Shown here: one piece after another, positions 9,376 through 61,100 of the stretch
Numbering within the stretch: the stretch's first letter is position 1
Layout of the letters: every line of letters begins with the position of its first letter
Assembly (NCBI RefSeq): GCF_020085105.1
Contig: NC_058052.1
Coordinates: 13,868,733-13,932,732, forward strand
Direction: 5' to 3'
DNA: 64,000 nucleotides
Source: Siniperca chuatsi
Taxonomy: Eukaryota; Chordata; Actinopteri; Centrarchiformes; Sinipercidae
Notes under the pieces: model-generated
The model's input: the letters and a program-made list of their open reading frames with translations, nothing else
What the model was told of the DNA's origin: nothing
Databases searched by the model: none
Made by a program: the position numbers and the translations under genes

Positions 9376-10237
9376 ATGGCTGACATAAAACCAATCACAG
9401 GTGCTGCTTCTGAGGTGAGATGTGATACACGAGATCTTGAGCAGAGAAATGTCAGCGACACAGACCCAGAAGAGGAGAAGATAAGGTACACATGTCGGAC
9501 AGAGGATTCAAAGAGGACGTGGGAGATCCCGTCTCTTCAGGAGCTAGAGGAGGTTTTACATTCAGCGCCACGCTCCTGTCGCCACGGAGATGAGGTGTGG
9601 CCGAACCTGTATCTGGGAGACATGTGAGTATCCCGTGCCTTATTAAAGTTCACATACAGTATGTGTGTCTGAATTGTTATTTATGCATAAATAAAATGTG
9701 GTATTTGTGTCAGGTTTATGTCGCACGACAAGCTCAGGCTCTGGCAGCTGGGCATCACTCATGTGCTGAATGCAGCGCATGGAAAACTGTGCTGTAAGGG
9801 CAGTGATGATTTTTATGGCACCACTGTGAAATACTACGGAGTCCCAGCCAACGACCTGCCAACATTTGACCTTTCACCTTTTTTCTACCCTGCTGCTGAG
9901 TTCATTCACCAGGCTTTGACGTCAGGAGGTACCGTAAGCTGCCACATATGGTGACACTACATAGAAACAGTTACTGTGGGGTTACCTGTATTTCCTGTTT
10001 CTTTGTTTGTGTCTTTTATGATTTCCAGGAAAGGTATTTGTGCACTGTGCTGTGGGTGTGAGTCGCTCGGCTGCTTTGGTCCTAGCGTACCTGATGATTC
10101 ACCACCACCTCAGTCTTCTGTCCTCTACACACTGTGTGCAGCAGAAACGCTGGATTTTCCCAAACAGAGGCTTCCTGCGACAGCTTATAGCCCTGGACCG
10201 AAAACTGCAGGACGAAGGGTTGAATGAAACGAAATAA
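9376..10237 (+). CDS. dusp13a: DUSP13A-like dual-specificity phosphatase, array copy 1
   Basis: Atypical (MAP-kinase-binding-domain-free) dual-specificity phosphatase. Exons 9376-9623, 9714-9928 and 10029-10237 give 223 residues, with GT/AG borders. Exon 1 encodes an acidic N-terminus and the family block [12 protein letters not shown]. Exon 2 encodes [13 protein letters not shown]...FYG and the general-acid loop VPANDLP. Exon 3 holds the P-loop HCAVGVSRS and ends [10 protein letters not shown]. The FYG, VPAxDLP and FPNRGFL signatures match human DUSP13A (MDSP), a muscle-enriched phosphatase, better than DUSP13B. Introns fall after GAC AT (phase 2) and after GGA G (phase 1), the same positions as in the other four copies. 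No in-frame ATG was identified upstream of the chosen one. All catalytic residues are present. Confidence 0.9.
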
Positions 10238-10671: not shown

Positions 10672-11495
10672 ATGTCAGGGAGCAACCAGCCACAGGACCT
10701 GGTGCTTATTAAAGAAGTAGAGCTCATCTTGGATTCCTGCGCACTGGAGCTCACGCCAGTGGATGAAGTGTGGCCCAACCTGTACATAGGAAATGTGTGA
10801 GTGTCTTATGTCTGTTGCAGGGAAAAATGAAACCTTCATGAGCTCTGCAAGAGAGAAATTGATCAGCTTTGTTATCCTTTTAAAGTACAGAACCTGTGTA
10901 AGTTCATCTTGATATAATTCCATGATAGTGTTTCACATGTTTCCTCTTTATTCCCTGTGTTTGGCTTCTTTTGTGTGTTTTCCAGGGCTGTAGCACAGAA
11001 TAGAAAGAAATTACATAAGCTTGGCATCACTCATGTTCTGAATGCAGCGCACTCCAAGCAGGGCAGCATTGGTGACCAGAGTTTTTACGGGAACACCTGC
11101 GTTTACTTTGGCATCCCAGCAGAAGATTCAGACCACTTTGACCTCAGTCAGTTCTTCAAACCTGCAGCTGACTTCATACATAAAGCCTTGAAGAGCAAAG
11201 ACGGTACGGTATATGAATGTGACACCCGTTGTCCCATCAATCATTTTGTACATTTCTTTTACATTCTCCATCCTGCTCTACAGGAAAAGTGCTGGTGCAT
11301 TGCATCATGGGCATGAGTCGATCGGCCACTTTGGTCCTGGCTTACTTGATGCTGCGGCAGCGTCTCTCTCTGAGAGATGCTCTGAGGCGTGTCGTCCAAA
11401 AAAGAGCCATTTACCCCAACCAGAATTTCCTGTCCCTCCTCCTCAAGCTGGATGAACAGCTGACACTCAAACGGAGGTTGTGTCCTCTTCTATAG
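10672..11495 (+). CDS. DUSP13A-like dual-specificity phosphatase, array copy 2
   Basis: Exons 10672-10796, 10986-11203 and 11284-11495 give 184 residues. Exon 1 ends with [11 protein letters not shown]. Exon 2 has [15 protein letters not shown]...FYG and acid loop [12 protein letters not shown]. Exon 3 has the P-loop HCIMGMSRS and [13 protein letters not shown]. Intron positions and phases equal those of copy 1. I chose the ATG at 10672 because the frame is closed by a stop at 10579 and no earlier ATG exists in it; the N-terminus is therefore short and an upstream exon is possible. Closest to DUSP13A (FYG, IPAxD). The neighbouring copy 1 and the shared layout indicate tandem duplication. Catalytic Cys, Arg and Asp are present. 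Function as an active phosphatase is inferred. Confidence 0.87.
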
Positions 11496-13431
11496 CATCC
11501 CTCTCAGCCATTAGTCGCCTCAAGACCTCGCTCTCTTTCCATGTGTTACACTCCACTCTAATCAGTATGAACACGTAATGATTTTCTATAAGAATGTGTA
11601 TGATGTAGTTAGGTGTGAGTTTGATGGTGGTAAACAGTGGAGTGACAGTTAAATTCCATGTTTTTATTAAGTTTAACTTCTGGGTACAGCATCAAGCATA
11701 TGTTGTAAAATATTGTAAATATCAAAGTACAGTGTCATATTTCTTGGTTTGTTTATTTGTTTATTTTGAGGTTTGTTTTTTCATATTCAAACTGTATTCA
11801 AATGTTCCCTGTCAGTGTTGTCAGACATGTCCACATGCTTTGTAAATACAGCTTTATGAATGAATGTCCATTAAAGACATTTTAAGATATTTTATTGAAA
11901 TATTTTGGCTGGCTGGATATAAAATGAGTGGTAAACTACATGTTTAAATATGTTTTGAATGATGCATATTACACTTTAACAAGACATAACTTTGAACAAT
12001 GTGCTTGATAAGGTACCTTGTTATTCTTCCATAATCCCTTAAACCAGAGTTTGTTTTTGTCACACTTGCCATACAGGGTACACAGGGAAGACGAGGGATT
12101 GGACCCAAATGCAGACACCGTAGGCAGAAGAGGTGCAGTTCAATAATTTAATGAGTAAAGTCAATGTACAAACGCTTACAGAATGGTGAGGCAGGTAAAA
12201 GGTCAAAACCAGAAAGCAGTCCAAAACAGGCAAACAAATCCAATAGGGAGGAGGATGAAAATCCAAAATCCATGTAACATAGTCGCAAAACAGAGGTAGT
12301 AAACCAAAACACTAGGCACAAACACAAGGAAAATGGCTGACCACAACACACATGAACCAAGACTAACTGACACAGACCACAGGAAGTACAGAGACTTAAA
12401 TACACTCAGGTGAGGGGAGAAAACGAGACACAGGTGAAACTAATCAGCGCCAGGCAAATAAAAATAATAAAAAATGTCGGGAAAAGCAATCAAAGACAGG
12501 AAGTAAAACTACACAAGACTCATGAGGCAGCACACTGCAAAATAAAACAGTAAATAACAAAACCCAAGACCCAAAACCATGACAGTTTTTTGTTTCAGTC
12601 AAATCATTACCATTCTGATAAAAACAAGCAATAGATTAGATCAAAAATTACATTTGATGAGGCGAATAATCTCAGCTTTCTAAATGGATTTCAATGTGGA
12701 CGCATTACAAACAAGGGGCATATAAATACAGTAACTAAATAATAGACATTATTTTAAATTGATGACAAAACAAAGTGAGATAATACTGTATATTATGACA
12801 AAAAAGAATGGATTGCAATAGAAAATAATGGCATTTATTGGATTTTAAATGAATTCAAACTCATAACAAAAGAAATGTGGCTTGAAGATTTCTTTCAACC
12901 TGTAGCTGATGTCACGTCATGATGTGTCACTGCACAGTCATCTAAAGGAGTAAAGAGGGTGCTGTACCTAACATCACTTATCCTTAAGAATTGTATCCCC
13001 AAGGCCATATGAGCCTTTTTCTTCTTGTTACAAAATGCAATGAGTATAACCTACATTTTTGATTTATGATAAATAATTCAGTATGATGTAATAACACAAC
13101 AAATACAACTAAAGTTAACACATCACTGGTGAATGTTATTCACAGCCTCAATCATATTTCTTAAAGGAGCAGAGCAGCTGGCATTACTCGGCTCCCGGGT
13201 GGCAACTGGCAACATAGAGACACATACTGTGCAGTACAGCGGAGTATTACATAACAGTCTGCAGTCATGGAAGCTATAAGCAAGTGAGCTAATGTTAAAG
13301 TTCACAGGATAATGCCGCATTGTACATAACAATGAGACTTCAGGCATGTAGTAAAAATTGATTAAATGTGTTTTAACGTGCCTCATAAATACATTCTGGA
13401 GGATGTTTTGCCACAGTGTATGATTACAGAG
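11496..13431. other. Intergenic region between DUSP copies 2 and 3
   Basis: The 3' UTR of copy 2 probably extends to about 11890 (ATTAAA near 11868). The rest has no recognised gene. It contains a solo LTR (12058-12584) and AT-rich unique sequence. Confidence 0.5.
12058..12584 (-). mobile_element. Solo LTR of a sushi-type Ty3/gypsy element (fossil)
   Basis: 527 bases bounded by TGTCA...TGACA ends, flanked by a 5-base target duplication GTTTT (12053-12057 and 12585-12589). Read on the minus strand it has the usual teleost LTR features: CACCTGTGTCTCG, TATTTAAG, CTGCATTTGGGTCC near the end. There is no internal region, so this is a recombined remnant. Confidence 0.75.
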
Positions 13432-13432
13432 T

Positions 13433-13440
13433 TATAAAAG
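13433..13440 (+). promoter_or_regulatory. TATA box proposed for DUSP copy 3
   Basis: TATAAAAG, about 300 bases upstream of the copy 3 ATG. A short leader exon (about 13465-13527) can end at GAA|GTGAGT. It would join the coding exon at acceptor GTCAG|T-ATG (exon start 13740). No comparable element is seen just before copy 4. Inference from motif order. Confidence 0.45.
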
Positions 13441-13740
13441 GAAACAGGCTACAGTCTTATGTGAGTGCGAGTGTTTATAGAGAAATAAGAGCGAACACGG
13501 CAGGAGAAGAGTTTGCACTGCCTTGAAGTGAGTAGAAACAGGTTAGTTTGGGGATCTCTTTACCATTGCAGATGATTGCTTGCATTAGGTTTCTAAGAAA
13601 AGGTCACTGTAATAAGTGTACATTGTAAAGAAAGGCAGCAAAGGCTGGAGAACTTTGTATATAATTTAACAGATAGCGAACATATTTCATACAAAGTGAA
13701 TGCTTAGTATATGCTCTCTGTGTGCTTTTTGTGAGTCAGT

Positions 13741-14788
13741 ATGTCTCTTAGGGATCCACCATATGACCCTCCTTCTGTCTCAGAGCTGCAGGAGTTCCTG
13801 CTGGCAAACAGGCGACCTACTGGGCATGTCAATAAAGTCTGGCCTAACCTTTACATAGGCAACGAGTAGGTTCACACACAATAACATGCACACATATATC
13901 TATGTAAACATCCTTCACTCATACATATGTGGATGTGTGATTGGGTTTCAGGGTGGCGGCTCGTGACAAGGGCGCTCTCCACAGTCTGGGCATAACTCAC
14001 ATTGTAAATGCTGCTCATGGACCCCCCAACCCCGGCCCCGGACCCTGCTTCTACGTCAACACTGGCCCACATTTCTACAGAGACATGACAGTGGATTATT
14101 ATGGGGTGGAGGCTGATGATGCAGTAGAGTTCATCCTTAGTCCTTTCTTTTACCCAACAGCACGATACATCAGAGCTGCACTGGCCATGGGAGGCAAGTC
14201 AGTCACACTTACAGTTATCTAAGTGTGTGTGATTGGATTTACACTCAGCGTCCACTTTATTGTGTACACCTGTACCCCCCTGTGTATGTAAATGGGGTGG
14301 ACAAAATATTAGAAACACCTTTCTATATAATGTAGTCCAGTACAACACCACCTTTAACTATGACCTCAGTAATAAACATATAATTGAATTTACACATTTA
14401 CGACAATGTCATCAAAACATTATGAACTTTGCAAAGATAGATGTTATGGCAGGGTTGTTGTATTGCAATACATTAGATTGTACAGATGTACTTAGTAAAG
14501 TGGCCACTGAAGGTATATTTTGCTGTATATCTGGTGCTGAAGGTAACAGCAAATGTCCCTATGCCAGGACGGGTGTTTGTCCACTGTCTGATGGGTGTGA
14601 GCCGCTCTGCAACATTGGTGCTGGCCTTCCTGATGATTGTTGAGGGCCTTAGGCTGCAGGAGGCGGTGGCTGCCGTCAGGCCGCACAGAGACATCTGTCC
14701 CAACCCAGGCTTCCTGCAGCAGCTCCGCGGCCTCGACATGAGCCTGGAGAGGGAGAGGAGGAGGCGACGACAGGCCCAAACACTGTAA
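13741..14788 (+). CDS. dusp13b: DUSP13B-like phosphatase domain, array copy 3 (probably first half of a two-domain gene)
   Basis: Exons 13741-13865, 13952-14193 and 14568-14788 encode 195 residues up to TAA. Blocks: [24 protein letters not shown], with a Pro/Gly-rich insertion before [22 protein letters not shown] (acid loop); P-loop [19 protein letters not shown]; a basic C-terminus ending [10 protein letters not shown]. FYRxMxxxYYGxEADD marks it as DUSP13B (TMDP)-type. The second intron uses a GC donor (GGGAG|GCAAGT); only this choice keeps the frame and the phase shared by the other copies. The stop codon overlaps a potential donor, CACT|GTAAAG. Splicing there to 14867 would remove the stop and continue into copy 4 in frame. 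Both forms may exist. Confidence 0.88.
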
Positions 14789-14866
14789 AGACACACACAG
14801 ACAAACACAAACATCAACATATGCTCATACATATGCACACAGACACACACATCTTTATTGCTACAG
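14785..14866 (+). other. Proposed 82-base intron joining DUSP copies 3 and 4
   Basis: Begins GTAAAG and ends TTATTGCTACAG. The upstream exon leaves two bases of a codon (CT) and the downstream exon supplies the third (A), giving Leu, after which the copy 4 frame continues GHSTQEEETPSLTEL. The intron is of a size usual for compact teleost genes. Supporting facts: copy 4 has no in-frame ATG and no visible promoter. Not proven without RNA data. Confidence 0.6.
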
Positions 14867-16903
14867 AGGTCACTCAACCCAGGAGGAGGAAACACCATCT
14901 CTGACAGAGCTGAGGCAAATTCTCTGGACAAACAGGAAGCCAGTGGCACCTGTGAATCAAGTCTGGCCCAACCTGTACATCGGAGATGAGTGAGTAGAAA
15001 TCACAACCAGCAGCTTGAAATGTTGTAAAAAGATGTTACAATAAATCAGTTTGTATGTGGTGTGTGTCTGGAGGTCTGTGGCGCGAGATAAAAGCACACT
15101 CTCGTCTCTGGGTGTAACTCACATACTGAATGCTGCAGCAGGCCGACACCGGATCAACACAGGTCAGCAGTTCTACAGTGATCTTGAAGTGGAATACCAC
15201 GGTATTGAAGCTGCAGACCATCCAGAGTTTACCCTCCGACCTTTCTTCAACCCTGCTGCACAGTTTATAGACAGTGCTCTGAAGCAAAACGGTGAGTGTG
15301 CAAATATGTGCAAAAGCCAATTCATAATGTAAAGAGGAACATAAATGCACTTTTTGAGGGGACAAAAACTACAAAAACACAGACACACACAAAGAATTGC
15401 AATATTAACATAGATATTACAAGTTTCTGCTTTATTTCTGGGTATAAGAACTTATTTAAACATGTTAGGAAATTACAGAGAAGCTCATACACAATTAATG
15501 TTGACAAAGACATTAGTTCTTTCTTTTTTATCCTTTCTGCATCCTCCCTATAAGAATTTCTTTTTTCACCATTTATTTAAAAAAAAAAGTCATATTTTTG
15601 GTAAACAAAATAAAATATACACAAATAAATACATAAGAATTTCAAATCAAAACCAGCAAAAATATAATTAAGTCAATGTTAGAGAAATGTTAGATATCAA
15701 ATAATCTAAAAGGGTATGTATAGTTTGAAGACATCAGACAAAGACACCTTTTTAAAATCCTTATAATCTGATTACTTTTGTTATCTTTTTAATTTAATGT
15801 AATGGGTTTAATATTATCTACTTGAATGTAATACAATGGATTTGATGTAATGGATTTATAATATAGATAAATATAATAGTTTTTTAATCTTACTTTCAAT
15901 TAGATTATCCATTAATCTGACTACTAATGTAATCTGTAATCTGACTACCTTTGTAACCTGAGTAACCAGTTTTTTCAACAGGATTATTTTTGGAATCAGA
16001 TTGCAGTAACATGCACTTAAATAGAATTCAATTTTGATTAAATTCTATTTCATTTTTTAAATTTATTTCAATTATATTCCTTTTTAAGTAGGTTTAAATT
16101 AGGGTTAAACTTTAAGTAACCAGATTACAAAAATAATCCCATAAAAAAAAAATTATATTAGACATTGAATACATTTTTAAAAATTAAATAGAATTAAATC
16201 AAAATTAAATTACATTAAATTGCTACATGCAATCCTATTTCAAAAGTAATCCAATTGCAAAAGTAATTCCATTGAAAAAGTAATCAAATTCAAGCGTAAT
16301 CAATTACCACAACAATCAGATTACAAATGTAATCTAATTACTAAAGGAATCAGACTATAAAGATACTCAGATTACAAAAGTTATCTCACTGACAAAGTAA
16401 TGGAGTAAAGATCTATTATTAAAAAACTGCAGCCAATTAAAGGTTGTTATATTCTGGAGAAAAACTCTTTAAACGTATTCAGATGGTTGGTATCTGTACC
16501 TTTAGATTTGCTTTGAAAATGTTCTGGAGACTTTTTGACCGCTCTGTTTAAGGGATATAAAGAGAAAATGCATAAATATTGGGATGAAGAGATCTGTGCA
16601 CCCTTGAACATTTCAATCAATTAATTCTTTTTCAAAAGTGTTATTAAATATACTAATCAATGTATCTTAACAGGGAAGGTGTTTGTGCACTGTGCCATGG
16701 GTGTCAGTCGCTCTGGAGCGCTGGTTCTTGCGTATCTGATGATCGTCCAGCGCCTGTCATTAGTGGAGGCCATAGTCGCTGTGCGTCTGAACCGAGATGT
16801 TGGACCCAACTCTGGATTTCTGGAGCAGCTGAGGCAGCTGGAGCTGAGCCTAAGTCCACAGAGCAGACAGCCCTCAGCGGAGGACCACACTGACACATCA
16901 TGA
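14867..16903 (+). CDS. dusp13b: DUSP13B-like phosphatase domain, array copy 4 (probably second half of a two-domain gene)
   Basis: Exons 14867-14989, 15074-15291 and 16674-16903 encode 189 residues plus one split codon. Blocks: [61 protein letters not shown] (acid loop, Asp kept); P-loop HCAMGVSRSG; GPNSGFLEQLRQL. ARDKSxL and NAAAG are close to human DUSP13B. No ATG occurs in the correct frame before the first conserved block. The frame is open back to acceptor CTACAG at 14866, so the N-terminus must come from another exon, best explained by copy 3. The second intron (15292-16673) is far longer than in the other copies and full of AT-rich repeats. If joined to copy 3 the product has 384 residues. 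Confidence 0.83.
15592..16420. repeat. AT-rich intronic repeat with inverted GTAATC/GATTAC motifs
   Basis: The left half carries repeated forms such as TAATCTGATTACTTTTGTTA and ACCTTTGTAACCTGAGTAAC. The right half carries the inverted forms, such as CAAAAGTAATCCAATTGC and CAGATTACAAATGTAATC. A central pair (AATTCAATTTTGATTAAATTC and AATTAAATCAAAATTAAATT) also mirrors. This looks like a decayed long fold-back element, or several. No coding content. It inflates the intron before the P-loop exon of DUSP copy 4. Confidence 0.6.
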
Positions 16904-17360: not shown

Positions 17361-17465
17361 CAGCTGCCTAAAAATATCATCTTAAACACAGAGCCTGAGA
17401 GAGCAGTTACCATTCCAGATCTATATTTCAGTCTTCATGCTTACTGCGGACAGAGGTCTCTATTG

Positions 17466-19013: not shown

Positions 19014-19821
19014 ATGTCCTCCTGTGAGGTGAAGTTCAAAAGCAGGAACCCGTACACAGCGGTGCGGGTGGACCCAGACAGTGATTACATCACTCCGGGA
19101 ACATTAGACCTTGAGCAGCTGTTCTGGACCAGCACCGGGGCCCAGTATGCACATGTCAATGAGGTCTGGCCCAGTGTCTACATTGGGGACGAGTGAGTAA
19201 ATGCACACATAGAGTACAAGTGTCAAAATTCATGATAGCAGCTTCATATTGAGTCTGTGTGTTACATGAAAACAGGAAAACAGCTCTGGAGCGGCCTGGC
19301 CTGAGGGATCTGGGTGTCACACATGTCCTTAATGCAGCAGAGGGAAAGTGGAATAATGTGCTGACTGGTGCTGATTACTACACTGACATGGACATCCAGT
19401 ACTACGGAGTAGAGGCTGATGACAAACCCACCTTCAACATCTCCCAGTACTTCTTTCCCACGGCCCAGTTCATCCACGAGGCCCTCAGCCACCCACAGAG
19501 TAAGACCTGGAGCAAATGAAAATCATTCTATGCAGAAGCTTGTATGCTTCACTATGTTTCTAATTAATCTATCTATCTTTGCCTAATTTTGTTCTAGACA
19601 AGGTGCTGGTGCACTGCGTGATGGGTCGGAGCAGGTCTGCGACTCTGGTCTTGGCATACCTGATGATGAATCACAGCTTAACTGTGGTGGACGCTATTGA
19701 GCATGTGCGACAGCGCCGCTGCATCCTGCCCAATCATGGCTTCTTAAAACAGCTCAGAGCGCTGGACATCACAATACAGGAGGAGAGGCTGAGACAAAAA
19801 AGAGAAATGCAAGAGCAATAG
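19014..19821 (+). CDS. dusp29: dusp29 (dupd1), dual-specificity phosphatase 29
   Basis: Atypical dual-specificity phosphatase, muscle-associated in mammals. Exons 19014-19192, 19276-19499 and 19598-19821 encode 208 residues (human 220). N-terminal [14 protein letters not shown] aligns with human MTSGEVKTSLKNAY. Then [62 protein letters not shown] (acid loop), P-loop [20 protein letters not shown], and a charged coiled tail. The Arg inside the P-loop (GRSRS) and DMDIQYxGVEADD are specific to DUSP29 among the five copies. Intron positions match the rest of the array. The ATG is the first in frame and lies 12 bases after an acceptor. It is the array member nearest adk, as DUPD1 is in human. Confidence 0.95.
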
Positions 19822-58113: not shown

Positions 58114-61100
58114 TGTCATGGTACAGCTGTACCTTTCCTAGTGCTCTGCGTTGCCCACCTGCTTTCCAGGAAGACTTCACCACAGCTCTCACCTGCCTTG
58201 CCTTGGACTGCATTCCTGCCTCAGCCTGCCTGCACGCCATAGCCTCGTGGCGGTCTGCTGTCTGCTTCCAGCCCACCAGCTTCCAGCCTTAATTCCACAC
58301 TCCTGGTTCCTCATCACGTGTTCTTCTAAATAAGCAGAACATACTACTGCACACTCATTGTGCTTTTGGGCCCAGCCCCGTTATACCATAACAGAACAAT
58401 CTGGCCACAACAATGGACCCAGCCGACTTCAACCTGGACCAAGCTGGAATGTAGCGAGCAATCTCCAGCCAAGGACAGCCACTGGGACAACATGAGCACG
58501 CTATCCGGACCCTCTTGGAACACAGTCAGACTGTCTTGAACCAGGTATCTCAATTGACTACTCAAGTCGCCACTCTGACTGCTCAACACTCACCACCCGA
58601 GTCCACAGCCCCAGGCCACTGGCCTCCTCCCTCCGTCTCTCCGCTGAGCTATGCTAGAGTGCTGCCGATCCGGGAATCATATGCGTGGATCCAGGCTCGT
58701 TCACCACCGAATTGGGGAAGTACCGGGGATTCCTCATGCAATGCTCTATGTTGTTGAATCAACAGCCTCTGACTTCCATCGGACCCAAACAAGGTAGATT
58801 ATATCATGGGATTATTTAGTGAGAGAGCCTGGCAAGCCCATTAGTTCCACCCAGCCGGTCACCACATTAACTTTGGACACCTTCACCACCATGCTGAGCA
58901 ACGTATTCGACCACCGGGGAACTGCTGCTACACAGTGGCTGGACCTCCGCCAGGGGGCCAGGAGTGTGGCGGACTATTCTGTGGATCTCTGCACCCTCGC
59001 AGCAGATACTAGGTGGAATGAGGAGGCATTGCAGGGAGTATTCACTAAAGGGCTAAGTGAACAATTAAAGGACGAGCTAGCCACTAGCGACGAATCCCCT
59101 AAATTTGGAGTCTAATCACCCTAGCAATCAGACTGGACAACCGCCTTCGCGAACGACGCCGGGAGCGGGCTAGTTACTCCTTACCAGCCACCAGTGCTCA
59201 TCCTTCCTCCTCTCGGAGAACGGACAGGTGTCCGCCAGCTGACCATCCCTCTACATCACCACCGGGGAAACCTATGCAGCTTGGCCGAGCTCGTCTCTCC
59301 ATGGCAGAACGCACCCCAGAGGAGGAATGCAAGAGTCTGCCTGCACTGCAGTCAGCATGGTCATCGCTGGGAAAAAAATAGACTCAACACTAGTTGTGAG
59401 GATAGCGGTGAGTCACACATCCATGTCAGCCCCATCCTGTTTAAGGATGCAATTACCGGCCATAATCTGTCACCAGAACCGGTCCTTCTCTCTGCCAGCC
59501 CTCATCGACTTGGGCGCTGATGACAGCGTCTTGGACCAGGAGACAGCGACCCGCCACAAGATCCCACTGGAACCCCTGGAGAGACCTCTCATAGCAAAGG
59601 CACTGGATGGTAGGCTTCTAGCCTAAGTGACTCACTGGACTATACCGGTCACCCTAGTTCTGTCCGGAAATCATCGGGAAACCATTCAGTTTAACGTCAT
59701 TCCATCTCCGGATTCTCCACTGGTTTTAGGCCACACTTGGCTGAGCCTTCACAACTCCCATATCGACTGGTCAGCCAGAAAAATCATCCGCTGGAGTTCC
59801 TTCTGCCTGGCAACCTGCCTGCAATCGGCGATTCCACCAGCAGATGGTGCAAACACTCCAATCCCAGAACCACCCAACCTATCTTCCATCCCGGAAGTAT
59901 ATCACAATCTCAGTGAAGTTTTTAGGAAGGATTTGGCCATATCCTTACCACCTCATCGGCCCTATGACTGACCCATTGACCTGCTTCCCGGAGCTACACT
60001 CCCCTCCAGCCGGCTATGTAACCTGTCTCGCCCGGAGAGGGAGTCCATGGAAAAATATATCCGAGAGTCCCTGGCAGCAGGCATCATCTGCTCTTCATCC
60101 TCTCCAGTCGGCGCTGGGTTTTTCTTCGTCACCAAGAAGGACAAGTCTCTCCGCCCCTGCATCAATTATAGGGGCTTGAACAACATTACGGTGAGAGTAG
60201 TATCCTCTTTCCCTGTTGAATGCAGCGTTCGAATCCCTAGAGGGAGCCACCCTCTTCACTAAGCTCGACCTCAGAAACACCTACCACCTGGTCAGGATCT
60301 GCGAGGGGGATGAGTGGAAGACGCCCCTGGGCCACTTCGAAAACCAGGTGATGCCGTTTGGATTAACCAACGCTCCTGCCGTCTTCCAGGAACTGGTGAA
60401 CGATGTTCTCAGGGATTTTCTCAACCGATTCGTCTTCGTATATCTGGACGATATGCGGATCTTCTCCTGCAACTCAAAGGATCATGTCATCCATGTCCGT
60501 CAGGTCCTTCAAAGAATGCTGGAGAACAAACTCATCGTCAAGGCTGAGAAGTGTGAGTTCCACGCCAGTTCTGTAACATTCCTTGGTTACATCTTTGATA
60601 GTGGGTGGTTGAGAACAGACCTGGAAAAGACCAGAGCCATTGCGGAGTGGCCCAAGCCTACCACTCGCAAGCAGCTCCAACAATTCCTAGGCTTCGCCAA
60701 CTTTTACCGCAGATTCATCCGCAACTACAGCAGCACCCCTAACCCAACTCACCTCCTCGTTGACTCCGTACGCATGGACCCCGGAAGCAGACCTCGCATT
60801 CACCAGGCTCAAGGACCTCTTTTCCTCAGTACCCATTCTCACTCAACCCGACTCCTCCCGGCAGTTCACCGTAGAGGTGGATGCATCGGACACTGGAGTG
60901 GGGGTGGTGCTCTCTCAGAGCTCCAACTCCGACTAAAAACTCCATCCCTGTGCGTTCTTCTCCAACCAACTCCCCGGCTAAACGCAACTACGACGTTGGA
61001 AACCGGGAGCTCCTCGCGGTCAAACTAGCACTGGAGAAAGGGAGGCACGGGCTGGAGGGATCCGAGTTGCCATTTGTAGTGTGGACCGACGACAAGTACA

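Follow-up and report, generated by a model that had tools for sequence, protein, structure and literature searches.

The closest described system to the genes considered here is the mammalian DUSP13 locus, in which three-exon DSP blocks are arranged in tandem. In the available portions of the published account, MDSP is produced from exons 1-3 and TMDP from exons 7-9, the mouse MDSP mRNA carries the TMDP exons as its 3′ UTR, TMDP-L1 transcripts have exons in common with DUSP13A, and the first exon of the locus provides the start of TMDP-L2 (PMC11274236). Mammalian transcripts can therefore cross block boundaries (PMC11274236, PMC9741552), and DUSP13 is listed, in the accessible part of the source, as the single whole-protein case among 236 human tandem-duplicated exon substitutions (PMC9741552). 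Each human or mouse product, as far as these sources describe them, contains one phosphatase block. In Cdc14, a pair of DSP domains within a single chain is the family signature (PMC11407943). What was found in the accessible literature on tandem DSP domains concerned mostly receptor PTPs, plus Cdc14.

How does the fish locus compare? The window, a 64,000-nucleotide stretch of contig C11 in the 719-Mb genome of Siniperca chuatsi, contains five three-exon DSP genes in tandem, all on the + strand:

9376-10237, + strand, copy 1, DUSP13A-like
10672-11495, + strand, copy 2, DUSP13A-like (type from pairwise identities and the tree)
13741-14788 and 14867-16903, + strand, copies 3 and 4, DUSP13B-type
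19014-19821, + strand, copy 5, DUPD1

Downstream of the cluster lie what we take to be ADK, AP3M1 and vinculin, identified using human protein sequences. By analogy, the fish locus would resemble the DUSP13 locus in its behaviour, and the new claim would be a frame fusion of two DUSP13B-type blocks. Unlike human and mouse DUSP13A and DUSP13B, as far as the available accounts describe them, the two fish blocks are both DUSP13B-type and the first exon of the downstream one is without an ATG. Copy 3 and human DUSP13B share 57% identity, and copy 4 scores 180.7 bits with DUPD1 and 174.8 bits with DUSP13B. The HCxxGxxRS P-loop is present in both copies (HCLMGVSRS in copy 3, HCAMGVSRS in copy 4). 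As proteins the two are 53% identical, from which we infer that the pair is old. A search of a genome contig collection with the copy 3 protein gave 77 pattern matches and no relative, and a search of a viral contig collection with the copy 4 protein gave 2 matches and no relative. Elsewhere in the window, an open frame at 60201-61028 reads, by eye, like a retroelement reverse transcriptase; the string CTAAAAATA at 17368-17376, upstream of copy 5, is a MEF2-like site that occurs in exact form nowhere else on the same strand of the window. An Rfam scan of the window at gathering scores gave no match.

The gene models for copies 3 and 4 and their immediate surroundings are as follows:

13433..13441, + strand, TATA-type element upstream of copy 3, by sequence inspection
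13463..13527, + strand, putative 5′ UTR exon for copy 3, without ATG; start placed from the TATA box
13741..13865, + strand, copy 3 coding exon 1, with ATG; the acceptor at 13739 leaves T/ATG
13952..14193, + strand, copy 3 coding exon 2, with GC donor GAG/GCAAGT
14568..14788, + strand, copy 3 coding exon 3, containing the P-loop HCLMGVSRS and the TAA stop at 14786-14788
14785..14866, + strand, putative 82-base fusion intron, donor ACT/GTAAAG (2.28 bits), acceptor TTGCTACAG
14867..14989, + strand, copy 4 exon 1, in frame, without ATG
15040..15045, + strand, AATAAA within intron 1 of copy 4, with a GU-rich run after it
15074..15291, + strand, copy 4 exon 2, gene model
16674..16903, + strand, copy 4 exon 3, containing the P-loop HCAMGVSRS and the stop

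The donor of the putative 5′ UTR exon is GAA/GTGAGT at 13528 (8.07 bits). The first-pass annotation had limited a TATA-type promoter to copy 3; the element itself stands, but its exclusiveness needs qualifying, as 13000-15000 contains further TATA-like strings at 13658 and 14324, the second of them in a dispersed repeat within intron 2 of copy 3. This repeat (14232-14529) has at least 75 further matches in the genome at 66-90% identity, and several of its copies are adjacent pairs on opposite strands. In the same intron, the GC donor at 14194 is followed four bases 3′ by a GT (14198) that is off-frame for copy 3 and in phase for copy 4. Two GGCAAC half sites at 13201-13213, located 54-66 bases 5′ of a candidate ATG at 13267, are presumably RFX X-box-like. 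The AATAAA at 15040 could possibly provide the 3′ end of an mRNA carrying copy 3 alone.

Copy 4 has no in-frame ATG and is open back to its acceptor at 14866, just as the first-pass annotation had it: the stop-to-stop frame 14742-14993 contains no methionine. The copy begins 78 bases past the copy 3 stop, and an alternative in-frame exon-2 donor would lengthen its product by two residues. When copy 4 exon 1 is compared with copy 3, the divergence at codon positions 1/2/3 is 0.42/0.30/0.57 (40 codons), and exons 2 and 3 are similar. Given this codon-position bias, the exon looks coding and retained; because it is start-less and yet constrained, in-frame entry by splicing is implied. The notable feature of this pair is the lost start codon of copy 4, rather than the overlap of a GT with the copy 3 stop.

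Searching this genome at the protein level revealed, among the 51 matches listed, a second DUSP cluster on contig C20 with the same gene order, which we infer to be the partner from the teleost genome duplication. In a 15-row tree (c for the copies in the window, d for those on C20), c2 paired with d2 (100/100) and c5 with d5 (89/89), and c1 and d1 fell into one open group with DUSP13A. The rows c3, c4, d3, d4 and DUSP13B were grouped at 80/87, a group whose internal branching order the tree does not settle; support of 100/99 covers only the split of the DUSP13B group from the DUPD1 rows. The two DUSP13B-type genes of C20, d3 (200 aa, MPRGL...) and d4 (182 aa, MSPEEE...), each have their own ATG in the first catalytic exon, whereas the homologous exon of copy 4 has none, and 2,375 bases separate the d3 stop from the d4 ATG. 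Because d3 and d4 keep their ATGs at this distance, both the start loss of copy 4 and its close spacing to copy 3 are probably derived. Since copies 3, 4 and d4 have in common a one-residue gap before the exon-3 block (also found in copy 1) and an NR[R/K]P..VN motif, copies 3 and 4 may have arisen by tandem duplication of a d4-like gene, a relation on which the tree is silent. When the 82-base gap was checked for traces of a duplication junction, and the window and C20 for conserved DNA upstream, the matches were weak, the best at E 0.016. A CRE-like, CGTCATGATGT-like string occurs 5′ of copy 3 (12915-12935) and 5′ of d3 (L041:8318-8338), at an E of 0.89 that may reflect chance. There is also an inverted match at 81% between 12361-12587, 5′ of copy 3, and L042:4158-4378 in the d3-d4 gap on C20; given these two places, 12361-12587 is probably a dispersed element.

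Because copy 4 is start-less, lies so close behind copy 3, retains constrained codons and has C20 counterparts with their own ATG, the anatomy of the genes suggests that copies 3 and 4 are likely one transcription unit in which copy 4 depends on the copy 3 transcript. It had been suggested that the two may be one gene encoding a tandem double phosphatase. The single unit is supported by this anatomy, but a fusion with an intron-retention switch is not favoured, because of the weak local donor, a better-scoring and phase-compatible candidate first exon, and the published behaviour of DUSP13.

How, then, might copy 4 be translated? Our preferred reading, held tentatively and at somewhat under even confidence, is that the choice of block is made through an upstream exon, producing alternative single-domain phosphatases. 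Copies 3 and 4 would be two tandem coding blocks in one putative transcript, and an upstream phase-2 exon would feed either of them. Copy 4 would be entered by a splice from this upstream coding exon into the acceptor at 14866, and its product would be a single-domain phosphatase, alternative to that of copy 3. The best candidate for the presumed exon is:

13267..13283, + strand, candidate alternative first coding exon (MEAIS..), a prediction; donor CAA/GTGAGC, 7.44 bits, phase 2

Its ATG lies in the context GTCATGG, with G at -3 and +4, and its donor is at 13284. Copies 3 and 4 agree in the phase of their acceptors (13739 and 14866), which fit a common upstream exon such as the predicted one, and this exon is in frame with both copy 3 (13740) and copy 4 (14867); the predicted single-domain products would have 201 residues through copy 3 and 195 through copy 4. 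Against this choice of block, the exon was found post hoc. With a stretch and an ATG-context criterion picked after the exon was seen, comparable candidates occurred in 22 of 634 overlapping 740-base windows when a good ATG context was required, and in 117 of 634 when it was not. Between 11500 and 14860, a frame opened by an ATG ends in the required phase at 19 GTs scoring 2.28 bits or more, and two of these GTs outscore the one at 13284: that at 12410 (10.91 bits, the top score), which lies in the repeated DNA with the 81% C20 match, and that at 12186 (8.78 bits). Moreover, reaching copy 4 from the 13267 exon means that three copy 3 exons are skipped, and in the available part of the DUSP13 account muscle Western blots showed neither TMDP-L1 nor TMDP-L2 protein, which also counts against a choice of block (PMC11274236). 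In favour of the exon, the genome yielded no second copy of 12600-13740, the DNA in which it lies; against it, an exact search for ATGGAAGC in L041-L043 gave no match, and the upstream DNA matched C20 only weakly.

An alternative that we consider unlikely, though still a serious contender, is that the 82-base intron 14785-14866 is spliced out and the two DSP domains are joined covalently, while intron retention, or cleavage at the AATAAA of 15040, would leave 195 residues. The frame arithmetic of this proposal held in full. A splice from 14784 to 14867 bypasses the stop and reads into copy 4, giving an open frame of 384 residues with both P-loops intact, in which DSPc (PF00782) is found in two stretches; with the intron kept, the copy 3 frame ends at its TAA to give the one-domain product of 195 aa. 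The assertion that the stop lies inside a usable donor was borne out only in part: the GT does overlap the stop and the phase fits, but 'usable' is generous. At 2.28 bits (all bit scores are approximate, coming from a matrix based on the literature), the donor falls below each of the 11 cluster donors scored first (3.66-9.81 bits), and the wider DUSP family set of 14 ranges from 3.66 to 11.47 bits; a second in-frame donor choice exists in copy 1 intron 2. ACT/GTAAAG has neither G-1 nor G+5, and the absence of both was seen in 0 of 14 DUSP donors and in 1 of 32 modelled donors of VCL, ADK and AP3M1, the modelling having covered VCL from residue 54 on, except for 171-201, and ADK from residue 24 on. 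That single exception is an ADK junction at which seven human residues are unaligned. Only two of these 46 donors, both in ADK, score as low as 2.28 bits; the second, ACT/GTTCGT, belongs to a junction that aligns cleanly, so donors this weak do exist. Of the 7,796 GTs counted on the two strands of the window, 22.5% match or exceed this score. Among 325 ORFs of at least 60 codons, 60 have a phase-2 GT scoring 2.28 bits or more at the stop or no more than 20 bases before it, so the overlap of donor and stop is unremarkable; the layout alone is weak evidence, though such a donor would be possible.

Several observations nevertheless favour a fused product. Copy 4 requires some upstream start; the other phase-2 GT of copy 3 exon 3, at 14575, scores below zero bits, there is no GT between the copy 3 stop and the acceptor at 14866, and a purine-rich, putatively enhancer-like run lies directly 5′ of the donor. 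An intron of about 80-90 bases is nothing unusual at this locus, lengths of 83, 89, 93 and 93 being present among those modelled. There is also a published precedent in the LY6G5B and LY6G6D chimeras, in which same-strand neighbours are spliced together and a retained intron contains a stop; there, in the available text, the partners come from different families and the chimeras were shown by RT-PCR, whereas the fish case consists of genes alone (PMC2562388). Copy 4 could, however, be entered in phase 2 from other places too, namely the copy 3 exon-1 donor at 13866 (4.68 bits) and the GT at 14198 (5.33 bits). With several in-phase upstream donors, fusion is only one among several possible routes, and its donor is the weakest among those considered. 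Skipping that starts at exon 1 of copy 3, or at its exon 2 via the GT at 14198, would yield 190, 231 or 313 residues, and every such join is in frame; the start of human TMDP-L2 in the first exon of its locus, as given in the available account, offers a parallel (PMC11274236). We regard such skipping as distinctly improbable, in that a splice from copy 3 exon 1 into copy 4 exon 2 would bypass the constrained-looking copy 4 exon 1 and the remaining joins would duplicate part of the domain. Least credible to us, with very little confidence attached, is that copy 4 is a decaying, untranslated copy. It does lack a start codon and any obvious promoter of its own, but three open exons, the splice sites and the P-loop are all kept, the codon-position bias persists despite only 53% identity with copy 3, and a general-acid Asp sits where one is expected.

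What would a fused enzyme resemble? Receptor PTPs also hold two phosphatase domains per chain, but their D1 and D2 are classical PTP domains and not DSP domains. That a double-domain DUSP would be unusual, as had been suggested, holds for the DUSP13B-type group, which is not known to include proteins with more than one domain. It does not hold for DSP domains at large, as Cdc14 has two in one chain; there, according to the available text, the two domains build one substrate groove beside one catalytic pocket (PMC11407943). The fish fusion would hold two intact P-loops of DUSP13B-type origin, which argue for two separate sites, unlike Cdc14. Neither copy 4 nor a double-domain fish DUSP is described in the accessible literature on fish DUSP13.

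If the fusion is true, a weak intron with its donor overlapping a stop would let the cell pick a one-domain or a two-domain enzyme, and a group not known beyond single-domain proteins would gain a double-domain member, tandem DSP domains being already present in Cdc14. Whether through the preferred choice of block or through fusion, the start-less second block in this fish may offer another view of how tandem genes become one gene.
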